DNA from: Ilumatobacteraceae bacterium
GTDB taxonomy: Bacteria; Actinomycetota; Acidimicrobiia; Acidimicrobiales; Ilumatobacteraceae
Reading direction: 5' to 3'
Assembly (NCBI GenBank): GCA_016650435.1
Contig: JAENVT010000565.1
Coordinates: 1 to 5,169 of the forward strand
DNA: 5,169 nucleotides
In this document: one piece after another, positions 1 through 5,169 of the stretch
Layout: each line of letters opens with the position of its first letter
How positions within the stretch are numbered: position 1 is the first letter of the stretch
Position numbers and translations under genes: made by a program
Notes under the pieces: model-generated
Told to the model about the DNA's origin: nothing
The model's input: the letters and a program-made list of their open reading frames with translations, nothing else
The model's database searches: none

Positions 1-528
1 ATCACCCAGATCAGCCGGGTCGGGATCAGGCTCTACGTTTCCGTCGGCTCCGGCAGCCCACCGCCCGCCAACTTCACGATCGATTCGCTCACGGCTGTGC
101 GTTCACCGGAGGGCGTGCCCGCGATCGCCGCCAACGTTCACAACACCGGCGGCAGAGCGCTCGACATGAGCGGGACCGTCGAGCTCGCGGGTGGGCCAGG
201 CGGTCTCGAGGCCGGTCCGTTCCCCGTCGAACTAGGCGTCACGCTTGCCATCGGCACGACCGAGCAGCTGACGATCCCGCTCGACAGGGCGCTGCCTTCC
301 GGGCCTTGGCACGTGACGATCACTCTGCACAGCGGCCTCGTCGAACGCAGCGCCCAGGCCTCGCTGACGTTCCCCGAAGTCGGAGCCGGACCGGCTGTGC
401 CCGTACTGTCGCCGTCGTCCGGACGCGGTGCGGTCACAACTGTTGGCGCCGTGGCAGTTGTCGGAGTGGAGGTGGCGAGCGCCAGCTCGTTCCATGTGCG
501 CCGCCGGCGTCGCCTGAGCGCGGTGTAG
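1..528 (+). CDS. C-terminal fragment of a surface-anchored WxL-interacting/DUF916-like protein
   Basis: The reading frame is open from the left edge to a TAG stop and gives 175 residues; the start lies outside the window. The fragment opens with IGIR-like text (VGIRLYVSV, residues 7-15). A probable beta-sandwich domain follows at about 25-125, with the motifs NVHNTGGRALD (45-55) and SGLVERSA (111-118). A Pro/Ser linker runs from 126 to 141, then a weakly hydrophobic stretch (about 144-163), then RRRRR at 167-171. This order is what one expects of an exported protein held by a C-terminal membrane segment with a short cytoplasmic basic tail. The domain text resembles actinobacterial proteins annotated as DUF916/WxL-interacting-protein-like, whose usual role is cell-surface binding; I infer this from memory of the family. 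The hydrophobic segment is poor (it contains Glu and several Ser/Thr), so anchoring is uncertain. The GTG at 97 is not the real start, because the family-like sequence continues upstream of it. The gene converges on the next one with abutting stops. Confidence 0.72.
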   Translation: MTQISRVGIRLYVSVGSGSPPPANFTIDSLTAVRSPEGVPAIAANVHNTGGRALDMSGTVELAGGPGGLEAGPFPVELGVTLAIGTTEQLTIPLDRALPSGPWHVTITLHSGLVERSAQASLTFPEVGAGPAVPVLSPSSGRGAVTTVGAVAVVGVEVASASSFHVRRRRRLSAV

Positions 529-3489
529 TCAGCTGGCGACGCGCGCCGTATTCGGCGGGCCGAAGCAGTAACCCAAACCACGCACCGTGCAGATCAGCCG
601 CGGCCGGCTCGGATCCAACTCGATCCTGCCTCGCAGCCGGTGAATGTGCTCGGTGACGGTTGTCGGGTTCTGCCACGTCGGCGACGAGTGCCACACCTCG
701 TGCAACAGATCACTTCGACTGAACGTTTCCCCGGCATGTTGGGCAAGGAAGGCCAGGAGTTCGAACTCCTTCGTGGTCAACTCGATGTCTCGCCCAGCGA
801 TCCATGCCCTGCCGGCGCTGAGGCCGATCTCCAGCGAATCGAAGCGCAATACGTTGGTCATGTCGACTGCGCCGCGGCGGCGCCGTCCACTGATGTGGGC
901 GATCTCGATGATGGCCGCGCCGAGGTCGGTCGGCGACTCATCAGTGGTTTCGCCGTGCTGCGCCGGTTCGTCGCGGTCGATGATCCGAGGCGGGCGAACT
1001 CGACGGATCATCCACTCCAGCGCATCGGGTGCGACGAGTGAGGCGGTCCATAAGAATCCCTGCCCGAAGGTGCAGCCGAGCTCGGTGAGAAAGTCGAGCT
1101 GACTGGCGAGCTCGACACCTTCGGCAACTACGTCGAGGTCGAGAACATCGGCGAGTGCGATCATTGCCCGGACGATCGAGGGGTCGTGACCGGTCGCACC
1201 GGCGCCCAGACCGCCGACGAACGATCGGTCGATCTTGACCGTGTCGATCGGCAGCCGACTGAGGTAGCTCAGTGACGAGTAGCCCGTGCCGAAATCGTCG
1301 ATGCTGACACTGAATCCGAACGATTGAAGTTCGACAATCGTCCCGAGCGCATTGTCGACTCGATCCATCAAGACGCTCTCGGTGATCTCGAGATGTACAG
1401 CGGTGGCTGGGACCCCCGCGTGCTCGGCTGCTGCACGAACGTGTTCGACGAGGCGTGGATCGATCAGCTGTTGCGCCGACACGTTGACTGACATCCACAG
1501 GTCGCGCGGGACTCGCGGGTCGGCACGCCAGGCCGCCAGTTGCTGGAGCGAATGGTCGAGCACCCAGATACCGATTCGCAGGATCAGTCCTGTCGCTTCG
1601 GCAATCGGGATGAACTCAGCGGGTGGGATCGATCCCAGCTCGGGATGGTCCCAACGGAGCAGTGACTCGAACCCGGCCACTTCGCATGTAGCGAGATCGA
1701 TGATCGGTTGGAACTCGAGATGCAGCTCGTCGCGCTCGAGAGCCTGTGGCAGCGCCGTCGTGACGCTCTGTCGACGATGGGCGCGCGACCTCGCGTGGTG
1801 GTCGAAGACTTTCACCTGGTTCCTGCCGTCACGCTTCGCCTGGTACATGGCATCGTCAGCGTCGCGGAGCAGCGACTCCGGCGAATCGGACGCCGTGCTC
1901 AGCGTGACGCCGACGCTGACCGTCAAGAAGAGCTCGCGATCCGCGAGCCTCAGAGGCTCGTCGAGCAGAACCAGCACATCGTTGCCCAGCTGATGAGCGT
2001 CGTCCATCGTTCGCACATCGATACGCACCACAGCGAATCCGTCGCCGCTGGTGCTGACGACGAAGTCGTTGGGTCGCAGTCCCGACCGGAAGCGGGTTGC
2101 CAGCGCTCTCAGGGCTTCGTCTCCGCTGGAGTGACGGAGACCATCGGTCACCAGTTTGAATCGATCGATGTCGATGACAGCAAGAGCGACCAAGTGATCA
2201 GCGTCCGATGAAGCAATCGCCGACTGCAAGCGCTCATTCATGGTTGCCCGGTTGGGGAGATCCGTCACCGAATCATGCGTCGCTCCGTAGACGAGGGCAG
2301 CCTCGGCCTGATGCCGGTCGGTTATATCGAGCATGGTGCCGGCGATGACGTTGGAGTTCGGGCCGCGCACTGCCGTTGCTTGCGACTGCACCCAGCGCAC
2401 CTCACCGTCGGGTCGCACGATTCGATAGGTGATCTCGCCTTCGTCGCGACCGGCCGCGGCCTCGCTGAGGAGCTGGGCCAGTTGGAAACGATCGTCGGGA
2501 TGAATGTGTTCGAATTCGCTCGCCATGACCATGCCAGGCCCATGCCCGAGAATCCGAGACAGTTCGTCGGAACGAGTGATCTCACCGGTGTCGAGATTGA
2601 CCTCGAAGCTGCCGAGCTTCGCTGACGCTTGTGCAGCGGCGAGACGTCGGCGATCCACTTCGATTTGATTGACAAGCAGCGCCGTGGCCTGTTCGGTCCG
2701 GAGACGCTCGGAGATGTCGGAGGCAACCGCGACCGTGCCGACCCGCACACCGTCCACAAACACCACCGAGTAGGTCACCAGCACCGGGATCGGATTGCCG
2801 CTCTTGGTCTGGACGCGCTTCTCGCCGGTCCATAGCTGACCTGCGTTCAGCAGGGCGACGCCCTCGTCGTCGATCACGTCCCACCCGCCCGGCGGCTCGA
2901 ACATGACCGCTGCCTGCTGTCCGATCGCCTCATCGGCCGTCCAACCGTATGTGGCTTCTGCGGCGGCGTTCCAGTAGAACACCGCACCTTCTGTGTCGGT
3001 CCCGACGATGGCCTGACCGGCTGCGGCAAGAAGTGCTGTCTGGAGGCGCACTTCCTTCTCAGCAGTGACGCGGTCCGTCACATCACGAAGATTGGCCACG
3101 ACGTAGCCGACGCTCGGATCGGCGACGAGGTTCGTCGCAACCTCCTCCACCCAGCGAATGTCTCCATGCGCGTTCACGAAGCGAAATTCGACCCGCACGT
3201 GATCTCCAAGATTCGGGATCGACGCGAAGGCTGCACACACTCGCCCGCGATCCTCGGGATGAACCAGATTGAGAACGTTGTGACCGATGAGCTCGGCCGG
3301 TTCGACGCCGAGCAGTCGCCGGCAAGCGGGGCTGGCGGATTGAACAGTGGCGTCGGAATGCAGGAAGACCACCATGTCGCACGAGTTGGCGACCGAGGCG
3401 TCGACTTGAGCACGAACAGCTGCCAACTGTGCCGCGGCATCGCCCGGGCGTACGACGGGCGAGCCCCAGAGCAAGTCCTGTCCGAACAT
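529..3489 (-). CDS. PAS-PAS-PAS-GGDEF(degenerate)-EAL protein with C-terminal OmpR-type winged-helix DNA-binding domain
   Basis: This 986-residue protein probably links a sensed signal, c-di-GMP hydrolysis and transcription. Three PAS domains (about 35-140, 150-262, 288-392) each end in the usual D-[VI]-[TS]-[DE]-R cap (136-140, 258-262, 388-392). The GGDEF domain (about 400-562) starts at HDSVTDLPNR (405-414) but has SGDGF (481-485) for GGDEF and Thr448 where the guanine-contacting Asn is expected; the inhibitory-site-like RPND (472-475) is kept. It is therefore probably catalytically dead. The EAL domain (about 575-830) has ESL (608-610), N669, E701, E704, DDFGTGYSSL (731-740), K752, E790 and Q810, so an active phosphodiesterase is expected. 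A linker (831-876) with a GRRRRG patch leads to a PhoB/OmpR winged helix (877-976) with TKEFELL (906-912), a recognition helix near 943-956 and the wing TVRGLGY (968-974). No receiver domain or convincing membrane segment is present, so it should be cytosolic. The ATG at 3489 is chosen because GGAGG lies 5 nt upstream; the frame is open further to 3825. Confidence 0.93.
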   Translation of the reverse strand: MFGQDLLWGSPVVRPGDAAAQLAAVRAQVDASVANSCDMVVFLHSDATVQSASPACRRLLGVEPAELIGHNVLNLVHPEDRGRVCAAFASIPNLGDHVRVEFRFVNAHGDIRWVEEVATNLVADPSVGYVVANLRDVTDRVTAEKEVRLQTALLAAAGQAIVGTDTEGAVFYWNAAAEATYGWTADEAIGQQAAVMFEPPGGWDVIDDEGVALLNAGQLWTGEKRVQTKSGNPIPVLVTYSVVFVDGVRVGTVAVASDISERLRTEQATALLVNQIEVDRRRLAAAQASAKLGSFEVNLDTGEITRSDELSRILGHGPGMVMASEFEHIHPDDRFQLAQLLSEAAAGRDEGEITYRIVRPDGEVRWVQSQATAVRGPNSNVIAGTMLDITDRHQAEAALVYGATHDSVTDLPNRATMNERLQSAIASSDADHLVALAVIDIDRFKLVTDGLRHSSGDEALRALATRFRSGLRPNDFVVSTSGDGFAVVRIDVRTMDDAHQLGNDVLVLLDEPLRLADRELFLTVSVGVTLSTASDSPESLLRDADDAMYQAKRDGRNQVKVFDHHARSRAHRRQSVTTALPQALERDELHLEFQPIIDLATCEVAGFESLLRWDHPELGSIPPAEFIPIAEATGLILRIGIWVLDHSLQQLAAWRADPRVPRDLWMSVNVSAQQLIDPRLVEHVRAAAEHAGVPATAVHLEITESVLMDRVDNALGTIVELQSFGFSVSIDDFGTGYSSLSYLSRLPIDTVKIDRSFVGGLGAGATGHDPSIVRAMIALADVLDLDVVAEGVELASQLDFLTELGCTFGQGFLWTASLVAPDALEWMIRRVRPPRIIDRDEPAQHGETTDESPTDLGAAIIEIAHISGRRRRGAVDMTNVLRFDSLEIGLSAGRAWIAGRDIELTTKEFELLAFLAQHAGETFSRSDLLHEVWHSSPTWQNPTTVTEHIHRLRGRIELDPSRPRLICTVRGLGYCFGPPNTARVAS

Positions 3490-3689
3490 CGGTGCCTCCG
3501 CTTGAGAGGCGTCGAGCCAGAGAACGGACCAGCCGACGAAACCGCCGCAACCGGCCCAACCAGGCGTCTCCAAAACTCGCCACGACGATCGCGGCTTGGG
3601 CACCCTACCTCGCATAGTGGTTAGTCGGACGCGTCTTGTGGCGGTTTTGGACAAAGGTCGGAAACGGCCAGTCAGGGCAGCATCAGCGC
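3490..3689 (-). other. Noncoding gap between the XRE-cupin gene and the PAS-GGDEF-EAL-wHTH gene
   Basis: About 200 bp separate the upstream stop from the chosen ATG. I see no stable hairpin followed by T residues, so read-through from the upstream operon cannot be excluded. I also see no convincing -35/-10 pair; the best A/T-richer patch is around 3610-3660 and is only a plausible promoter location. The frame of the downstream gene stays open through the gap. If the ATG at 3615 were used, it would add 42 residues containing a short Trp/Gly-rich, mildly hydrophobic stretch. That stretch does not look like any domain. Confidence 0.5.
3495..3499 (-). promoter_or_regulatory. Ribosome binding site for the PAS-GGDEF-EAL-wHTH gene
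   Basis: On the minus strand GGAGG is followed by CACCG and then ATG at 3489-3487, which is a near-ideal Shine-Dalgarno with 5-nt spacing. It decides the start, because the in-frame ATG at 3615 (42 codons upstream) has no comparable purine run before it. Confidence 0.75.
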
Positions 3690-4310
3690 TCAATAGTGCG
3701 GAGGAGTGATCACCCAGAGGACCTTCGTCGGTGCGTCGGTCGGGTTGGCGCACCGATGCTGTTGGGTGCTGGCGAAGGCAAAGCTGTCGCCGGCAACGAG
3801 ATGAAGGTGGACATCGTCGACCCACAGCTCCAGGGTTCCGCTGAGGACCACGCCGGCCTCCGCACCGTCGTGGGAGTAGTTGTCGCTGTCGGCGCCCGGT
3901 GCGATCGTACTGATCAACATCTCGAGCGGACCAGTGAGGTTCGGCGAGAGCAGCTCCTCGGTGATGCCGAGACCGGTGAAGGAGAGACGCGGCCGGTTGC
4001 CCGCACGCACGACGATGTCGCGTTCTTCCGCTGGGCCGAGCTTGCCGGCGCGGAAGAACCAGTTCATGTGAATGCCGAAGACGTCGCAGATCGCCTTGAG
4101 CACGCCGATCGGCAGTCGTGTTTGGTTTCGTTCGATCTCACTGAGGTAGCCGATGGAGATGCCTGCATCGGCAGCGAGCTGTTTCAGGGTCAGGCCGTGG
4201 GCTTTGCGTAGGCCGCGGATCTCGTCGCCGATCTCCGCCGAAGGGTCGAAGTCAGCTCCCGCGGCTGGTTCATGGAGCTCGCTGGCTGTGTGCAACGGCC
4301 GAAACGCCAT
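3690..4310 (-). CDS. XRE-family helix-turn-helix transcriptional regulator with C-terminal cupin domain
   Basis: The 206-residue protein has the two-part layout of small XRE-cupin regulators. Residues 27-82 form an HTH_3-like domain: IGDEIRGLRKAHGLTL, then the helix-turn-helix over LAADAGISIGYLSEIERN (45-62), ending at about 80. Residues 130-203 form a cupin_2 barrel with a motif-1-like H147/E151/G158 pattern and a motif-2-like H185. Only one His is present in the usual HxH position, so metal binding is uncertain. Regulators of this type bind DNA as dimers and use the cupin to sense a small molecule, often an amine or amino-acid derivative. The ATG at 4310 is chosen because it directly follows the stop of the upstream gene (TGA-CCCGG-ATG, 5 nt between) and immediately precedes the family-like region; a weak GAAGG lies 10 nt upstream within the end of that gene. 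Translational coupling to the dehydrogenase-like gene is likely, so it is probably a local regulator of that operon. The effector cannot be read from the sequence. Confidence 0.92.
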   Translation of the reverse strand: MAFRPLHTASELHEPAAGADFDPSAEIGDEIRGLRKAHGLTLKQLAADAGISIGYLSEIERNQTRLPIGVLKAICDVFGIHMNWFFRAGKLGPAEERDIVVRAGNRPRLSFTGLGITEELLSPNLTGPLEMLISTIAPGADSDNYSHDGAEAGVVLSGTLELWVDDVHLHLVAGDSFAFASTQQHRCANPTDAPTKVLWVITPPHY

Positions 4311-4315
4311 CCGGG

Positions 4316-5169
4316 TCAGGCCTTCACTCGGAGGCTCTTCGGGTCGTAGAACGGTTGCAACGAGACCCGCGCCGGCAGCCGGACGCCGGCCACCTCGACC
4401 TCGTACGCTCCAGCATTGATGTAGGCGGCGTCGGCGACTCCGTCCGGGTTGGCTACGTAACCCATTGCCAGCGACTGCTGCAATGTGTGGCCCCACATTC
4501 CTGAGCTGGTCTCGCCGACGAGCGAGCCATCGCGCCAGATCGGCTCGTTGTGGTACAGCAGCTTGTTCGAGTCGACGAGGGCGAGTTGCACGAGGCGACG
4601 CGTGAGTCCGGTCCCGCGCTGACGGGCGAGGGCCTCCTTACCGATGAAACCGTCCGGCTTGTTCCATGCCACGGCAAAACCGAGACCCGCCTCCAGCGGG
4701 CTGTCGTCGGGCGTGATGTCGTGGCCCCAATGCCGGTAGCCCTTCTCCATGCGGAGCGAATTGAGCGCGTGGTAGCCGGCCAGGCGTGGAGCGCCGTTGC
4801 TTCCGCCGTCGCTGAGAACGCCGAAGACGGCGGCAGCGAACTCGGCTGGAACGTAGATCTCCCAACCGAGCTCACCGACATATGTAACGCGACTGGCGCG
4901 CACCCGGGCATAGCCGAGATCCATCTCTTGTGAGGTGCCGAACGGGAACGCTTCGTTCGACAGGTCGGACGGCGTGAGCGCTTGCAGGAACGTCCGCGAG
5001 TTGGGGCCCATCACGCTGAACACCGCTGTGCCGGATGTGACGTCGACTGCGATCGCTCGGTCGTTTGGGCCGATGTGATCCTTCAGCCAGTGGAAGTCGC
5101 GAACCTGCGTCGCCGCGGCGGTCACGATCATGAACCGGTCGTCCGCCTCGCGTGTCACGGTGAGGTCGG
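4316..5169 (-). CDS. C-terminal GcvT-type folate-binding region of a probable sarcosine/dimethylglycine dehydrogenase-like protein (partial)
   Basis: The frame is open to the right edge and gives 283 complete residues; the start and any N-terminal FAD domain lie outside. The first residues (DLTVTR) match the usual text in the middle of dimethylglycine/sarcosine dehydrogenases, not a protein start, so the GTG at 5158 is not used as a start. Visible GcvT-family signatures, counted from that Asp, are YVGELGWEIYVP (96-107), SLRMEKGYRHWGHDI (137-151) with PLEAGLG (157-163), and FIGKEAL (174-180). The C-terminal beta-barrel domain (GcvT_C, about 188-283) ends in a YDP-containing tail (274-276). In this family the region binds tetrahydrofolate and receives the one-carbon unit released on oxidative demethylation of the methylglycine, giving 5,10-methylene-THF. 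The EKGYRHWG wording favours the dehydrogenase-fused class over a stand-alone glycine cleavage T protein, but the missing half prevents proof. It heads the operon segment seen here, with the XRE-cupin gene 5 nt downstream. Confidence 0.87.
   Translation of the reverse strand, partial: DLTVTREADDRFMIVTAAATQVRDFHWLKDHIGPNDRAIAVDVTSGTAVFSVMGPNSRTFLQALTPSDLSNEAFPFGTSQEMDLGYARVRASRVTYVGELGWEIYVPAEFAAAVFGVLSDGGSNGAPRLAGYHALNSLRMEKGYRHWGHDITPDDSPLEAGLGFAVAWNKPDGFIGKEALARQRGTGLTRRLVQLALVDSNKLLYHNEPIWRDGSLVGETSSGMWGHTLQQSLAMGYVANPDGVADAAYINAGAYEVEVAGVRLPARVSLQPFYDPKSLRVKA

Follow-up and report, generated by a model that had tools for sequence, protein, structure and literature searches.

An EAL enzyme and a DNA-binding domain in one chain is a known idea. 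PdeL (YahA) of Escherichia coli is not known to have a PAS or GGDEF domain; like the 986-aa protein described here, it carries EAL and a DNA-binding domain in a single chain, but its helix-turn-helix (HTH) is N-terminal and of the LuxR type, whereas the 986-aa protein has a C-terminal OmpR-type winged helix. The initial annotation had named PdeL as the precedent. We believe that PdeL is the best functional precedent but not the sole one, and that VieA of Vibrio cholerae is nearer in domain order. According to passages of PMC4352251, VieA has an EAL phosphodiesterase and then a C-terminal HTH, behind an N-terminal receiver, and direct DNA binding by this HTH had yet to be demonstrated as of that paper. 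VieA is likened to the 986-aa protein by its order of phosphodiesterase and then C-terminal HTH, HTH types aside; it differs in its N-terminal receiver, which the 986-aa protein does not have, and PAS and GGDEF are unmentioned in those passages. FimK of Klebsiella also joins an HTH and EAL in one chain, but its HTH is N-terminal where the winged helix of the 986-aa protein is C-terminal, and the passages of PMC3419637 on FimK mention neither PAS nor GGDEF. SLUN_31535 of Streptomyces lunaelactis, as described in part of PMC6205966, resembles the 986-aa protein in having a c-di-GMP-type domain and then a C-terminal DNA-binding domain, but it has HD-GYP in place of EAL, key GYP residues are missing, and its HTH is LuxR-type. 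MtrA/PhoB-type response regulators have the winged helix in common with the 986-aa protein, but are controlled by an N-terminal receiver that is absent from it.

The trigger phosphodiesterases named in 2016, in the relevant passage of PMC5052742, were PdeL and PdeR. In a literature search by titles and abstract openings, no GGDEF-EAL-OmpR winged-helix protein was found described. In the relevant passages of papers with both EAL and Trans_reg_C, Trans_reg_C was assigned to non-EAL proteins only; PMC3419637 places Trans_reg_C in Orf10 and EAL in Fim2K. Passages of PMC6416229 and PMC8846402 and a term search of PMC9756655 yielded nothing on GGDEF-EAL-winged helix fusions. Judged from this literature, the arrangement with a C-terminal OmpR winged helix appears to be new.

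The window analysed in this study is a stretch of 5,169 nucleotides from an Ilumatobacteraceae bacterium (contig JAENVT010000565.1), and its features are listed in Table 1.

Table 1. Features of the PAS-EAL gene, its product and its upstream gap, in window positions.
Feature	Position	Strand	Basis
Gene for 986-aa PAS-PAS-PAS-GGDEF-EAL-linker-winged helix protein, stop codon included	529..3489	(-)	ORF, Pfam and homologue search
Gap upstream of PAS-EAL gene, 200 nt, with GGAGG	3490..3689	(-)	Sequence inspection
Three PAS domains, about residues 35-146, 152-275 and 285-392	2314..3387	(-)	Pfam
GGDEF domain, residues 403-558	1816..2283	(-)	Pfam, E 1e-32
EAL domain, residues 579-814	1048..1755	(-)	Pfam, E 2e-71, and fold searches
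Variable linker, residues 821-855	925..1029	(-)	Conservation and model
Conserved linker helix, residues 856-867, then Arg cluster 869-872	889..924	(-)	Alignment and model
OmpR/PhoB-type winged helix, residues 880-976 (predicted)	562..852	(-)	Pfam, sequence matches and model

The initial annotation had described one uninterrupted chain of three PAS domains, GGDEF, EAL, linker and winged helix, without a receiver, and both points held. The frame is unbroken, and in a Pfam scan that gave 11 families at E<=1, PAS, GGDEF, EAL and Trans_reg_C were above their cut-offs and Response_reg was absent. PAS_3 matched three stretches (E 6e-38), and Trans_reg_C (PF00486) matched residues 899-976 with E 2e-22 and 79.3 bits against a cut-off of 26.2. 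With no receiver, and so no phospho-acceptor Asp, in the Pfam scan, the protein is neither an OmpR/PhoB response regulator nor of the VieA-type order receiver-EAL-HTH. It also falls outside the PdeL family, defined by an N-terminal LuxR-type HTH with EAL, because its first Pfam domain is PAS and its DNA-binding domain is the C-terminal PF00486. An EAL enzyme and a predicted DNA-binding output in a single protein is the trigger-phosphodiesterase architecture, to which the 986-aa protein appears to belong.

The frame is open throughout from ATG 3489 to the stop codon at 529-531, and a GGAGG ribosome site lies just 5' of the ATG. Upstream start codons such as ATG 3615 were disfavoured because of this GGAGG and of an MF start motif common to six homologues. 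The third-codon-position GC remained high up to the C-terminus, at 0.79 in the linker and 0.80 in the winged helix, in line with 0.72-0.74 in the remainder of the gene. An operator search 5' of the gene found no direct repeats in window 3480-3700 and a single weak inverted repeat, and no sigma-70-like promoter or terminator match was found in the upstream gap. Upstream on the same strand, an HTH_3 and cupin regulator (3690-4310, ATG at 4310) starts 5 bases past the end of a GcvT-type aminomethyltransferase gene (4316-5167 (-), truncated by the window end), and the two look like an operon, with the 200-nt gap before the PAS-EAL gene. On the other side is a convergent partial frame of 175 aa (1-528 (+)) that ends with a hydrophobic stretch and an Arg-rich tail; neither Pfam (E<=1) nor NCBIfam (E<=0.01) gave a match for it, and its sequence resembles that of a membrane-anchored surface protein.

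With the linker and winged helix as query, 21 proteins were found, query included. EAL and Trans_reg_C occur together in 17 of them, and 13 of the 17 share the in-frame order GGDEF-EAL-winged helix of the window. The same order is thus found in 12 other database proteins, two of which (P0011 and P0012) are shortened at the N-terminus and have no PAS. The window is a short contig, and frame breaks in data of this kind are suggested by two relatives: P0022 retains the linker and then apparently loses the frame, and P0023 apparently loses it inside EAL. We give a practically negligible probability to the explanation that two genes were fused by sequencing or assembly error, and this is ruled out by the same in-frame fusion and linker in the 12 other proteins and in a named Ilumatobacteraceae MAG (locus L001). 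The fusion is real and conserved. In this MAG, the relative adjoins a second c-di-GMP gene (L001 1915-4389 (+)), which encodes GGDEF-EAL with a CHASE match.

A GGDEF-centred search, in which the 7995 candidates with most shared words were scored, gave 97 proteins, query included, with at least 14 Trans_reg_C carriers among these matches listed. P0039 and P0053, which have the winged helix, were picked up by this search only. Among the matches listed at >=69% identity, 10 of 12 had Trans_reg_C, the exceptions being P0022 and P0023. The initial annotation would have been refuted by homologues that consistently end after EAL. This fails for those at >=69% identity, but P0025, which is still rather closely related and lies on a contig of 220 kb, stops directly past EAL without winged helix, and among the more remote relatives P0024 and P0026, for example, do so too.

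The EAL domain has E608, N669, E701, D731, D732, K752, E790 and Q810 (alignment A1), eight positions that are catalytic or metal-binding in EAL phosphodiesterases. All eight were kept in 15 of the 15 A1 rows with EAL aligned (17 rows in all; P0015 and P0016 are misaligned at EAL and outside this count), and in same-order members down to 55% identity. The GGDEF domain is different. Its motif is SGDGF (481-485) and GG[DE]EF is absent, and Thr448 stands at a position that is usually Asn, points that go beyond the initial annotation. All 10 members of the closest clade (P0001-P0010) have SGDGF and Thr for Asn, and because of this degeneration the domain is unlikely to be an active diguanylate cyclase. 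The RxxD I-site is intact (RPND 472-475); it is kept in P0001-P0010 and lost in P0011-P0013. In the wider GGDEF-EAL set, GG[DE]EF was present in 2 of 21 winged-helix rows (P0011 and L001) versus 60 of 76 rows without winged helix, which is a trend only, since the rows share ancestry and are not phylogenetically independent. Such scarcity would fit proteins that sense or break down c-di-GMP and do not make it. The degenerate GGDEF and the three PAS domains would also suit a transcription factor gated by PAS, with GGDEF and EAL serving chiefly as a scaffold for dimerisation and with incidental catalysis; we consider this unlikely, as a pure scaffold would not need the eight EAL positions that are kept down to 55% identity.

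The model of residues 560-986 (mean pLDDT 88.5) has a disordered linker and, after it, a complete OmpR-type winged helix. The OmpR-type layout is an N-terminal four-strand sheet, three helices and a C-terminal hairpin; the model has four N-terminal strands in 880-902, helices at 906-917, 925-933 and 943-956, and a C-terminal hairpin at 966-976, with pLDDT 87-97 in these blocks. The complete winged helix proposed by the initial annotation is thus supported by the model; a fold prediction with no winged helix at residues 877-976, which would have refuted it, was not obtained. Fold searches with the 560-986 model gave EAL structures only and no winged helix among the matches listed, and the evidence for the winged-helix fold is therefore the profile match, the sequence matches and the secondary structure of the model. 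The best sequence match of the winged helix among solved structures was MtrA (2gwr, E 3.4e-17), followed by other OmpR-family regulators. The closest solved relatives of GGDEF-EAL were the GGDEF-EAL proteins PA0575 and MorA. The full-length model was weak (mean pLDDT 67.7, pTM 0.43), and because of its poor quality nothing was inferred from it about the docking of domains; the matches listed in a fold search with it were GGDEF and EAL proteins.

Residues 833-854 of the linker are disordered in the 560-986 model (pLDDT under 50). A long, variable and disordered linker favours loose coupling, and we therefore weighed a reading in which the winged helix is an address label, so that a PAS-controlled phosphodiesterase is held at chromosomal sites for local lowering of c-di-GMP, or DNA binding is constitutive, with no c-di-GMP control of transcription. 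The intact EAL residues and the state of knowledge on the HTH of VieA (above) agree with it. However, the conserved helix before the winged helix suggests a set geometry, and the sensors and EAL are retained alongside the winged helix throughout the lineage, and we regard the address label as rather improbable.

In the ten-member clade, the all-pairs identity was 87.1% for the winged helix, 83.8% for EAL, 80.0% for GGDEF, 70.0-76.9% for PAS and 37.3% for the variable linker; the winged helix is thus the best-conserved domain, a ranking biased by the use of the winged-helix region as query to find the homologues. The recognition helix TVTEHI.RLR was found in 13 of 13 rows, and this helix and the wing are for the most part unchanged across the aligned relatives. 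Such conservation speaks against a winged helix that is past DNA binding and serves protein contacts or dimerisation, as does TVTEH, common to 51 of 54 relatives, mostly receiver-bearing, among the matches listed. This reading can call on the patchy occurrence of the winged helix on the GGDEF-EAL tree and on the missing operator-like direct repeat upstream, and in our opinion it is very unlikely.

On named genome contigs, the best 80 of 585 confirmed loci were examined. Among these, the order of the window was found in L001 only, and L002 has a winged helix and then EAL on a cut contig. The genome searches scored the best 9-19 candidates per genome, so the counts are lower bounds. Among 221 genomes of the family of L001, at least 50 had a match at the cut-off. 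At loci L081-L118, EAL in the same frame was found in four genomes (G001, G002, G129 and G218), with the window's order in G001 only. Across 395 class genomes, a comparison from which a long frame in G545 was left out, the window's form was distinct by score in G001 alone among the candidates scored. The best 12 loci of these genomes comprised ten without EAL in the winged-helix frame, L119, which is the L001 protein again, and L124, which is receiver-winged helix-PAS-EAL. The winged helix-PAS junction of this receiver-bearing form was present at E<=1e-26 in at least 3 of the 395 genomes, at 4 places, with the domains checked at G295:C3 only.

A search from L124 gave at least 44 proteins with EAL and Trans_reg_C among 52 matches listed, whose source names include two of Rhabdothermincola salaria and three of Acidimicrobiales. 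In 46 of 54 proteins (the 52 matches listed, P0015 and P0016) the winged helix is N-terminal to EAL. The same winged-helix subfamily joined to EAL thus recurs in Acidimicrobiia-type proteins, mostly as receiver-winged helix-EAL. For example, the receiver-winged helix-PAS-EAL proteins P0108 and P0124 (R. salaria) share this subfamily and an intact EAL with the 986-aa protein, but they have the receiver first and the winged helix before EAL, whereas the 986-aa protein has no receiver and its winged helix is last. Each of the eight EAL positions was kept in 44 to 46 of 46 domains of the L124-related set. Among the matches listed, the phospho-acceptor position of the receivers of this group is Asp in 32 of 41, Glu in 7, Ala in 1 and Gly in 1. 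The nine without Asp are P0108 (Ala), P0117 (Gly), and P0109, P0110, P0112, P0113, P0114, P0155 and P0156 (Glu). P0136, P0137 and P0148 carry the B12-binding families PF02607 and PF02310 with a receiver and an OmpR-type winged helix, and P0137 also has EAL; they are possibly cobalamin- or light-sensing regulators.

In a further group the winged helix is in the middle, and the whole members are GGDEF-EAL-GAF-winged helix-PAS-EAL (L115 and L117; P0014 is open at its start). L115 4169-8641 (-), L117 1345-6054 (-) and L113 1955-6451 (-) are frames of about 1,500 codons with an EAL stretch on each side of the winged helix. GAF was found by Pfam between the EAL stretches of L115 and L117, the two that were scanned.

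Quick trees with SH-aLRT support values were used for the history of the module. From the rows of the GGDEF-EAL tree, 7 short ones were left out; of the 97 that remained, a further 38 were dropped by choice, the frame-broken P0023 among them. The winged helix is patchy on this tree, and well-supported branches force at least five changes, one of which may be false because P0038, which pairs with L001, has 885 aa on a contig of 2658 bases and is apparently truncated by it. The trees of the winged helix are short in columns and lack an outgroup root; in them the 16 rows with linker and winged helix at the C-terminus form a single lineage (support 95 and 94). A larger lineage (support 95) unites it with 8 of 9 rows of the winged-helix-in-middle group, in which some rows are fragments and L116 is without EAL. 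One C-terminal lineage together with a patchy GGDEF-EAL tree points to a single origin with later loss or moves; the module most likely arose once and was then lost or moved several times, and the winged helix would therefore not be essential to the enzyme. The linker helix and the Arg cluster of the winged helix may be receiver-like, and this helix may derive from the last one of a receiver, both judged by eye.

We believe that the 986-aa protein is probably, though by no means certainly, a trigger phosphodiesterase: a transcription factor without receiver that binds DNA according to c-di-GMP and to the state of its PAS domains. The "trigger enzyme" proposed by the initial annotation remains the best available explanation of a single chain with an OmpR-type winged helix, no receiver and intact EAL residues. 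It is supported by the in-frame fusion in 12 others, the conservation of the winged helix, the EAL residues, the scarcity of GG[DE]EF and the predicted fold; the lack of direct repeats in 3480-3700, P0025 without winged helix and the loss of the I-site in P0011-P0013 count against it. We propose that the dimer state of the chain is set by PAS signals and by c-di-GMP that EAL binds or cleaves, perhaps with a contribution of c-di-GMP at the retained GGDEF I-site, and that it depends on this state whether two winged helices can occupy neighbouring positions on DNA. Control, which in ordinary OmpR regulators lies with the phosphorylated receiver, would then lie with the EAL block. If PdeL is a guide, DNA binding may be favoured at low c-di-GMP, and the switch may be made sharper by the activity of the enzyme itself. 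The stronger statement, that the EAL block has replaced the receiver as the OmpR-type control domain and formed a c-di-GMP- and PAS-gated one-component switch that destroys its own signal, is offered tentatively, as a possibility that could well prove wrong.

The OmpR-type winged helix is the most familiar output of phosphorylated receivers. If DNA binding by the 986-aa protein responds to c-di-GMP, OmpR-type winged helices would also come under direct second-messenger control, and this in bacteria on which the c-di-GMP literature is sparse. It would add to the trigger phosphodiesterases PdeL and PdeR. The natural series of architectures, with the winged helix after a receiver, in mid-chain or last, would then be one DNA-binding module under different inputs.
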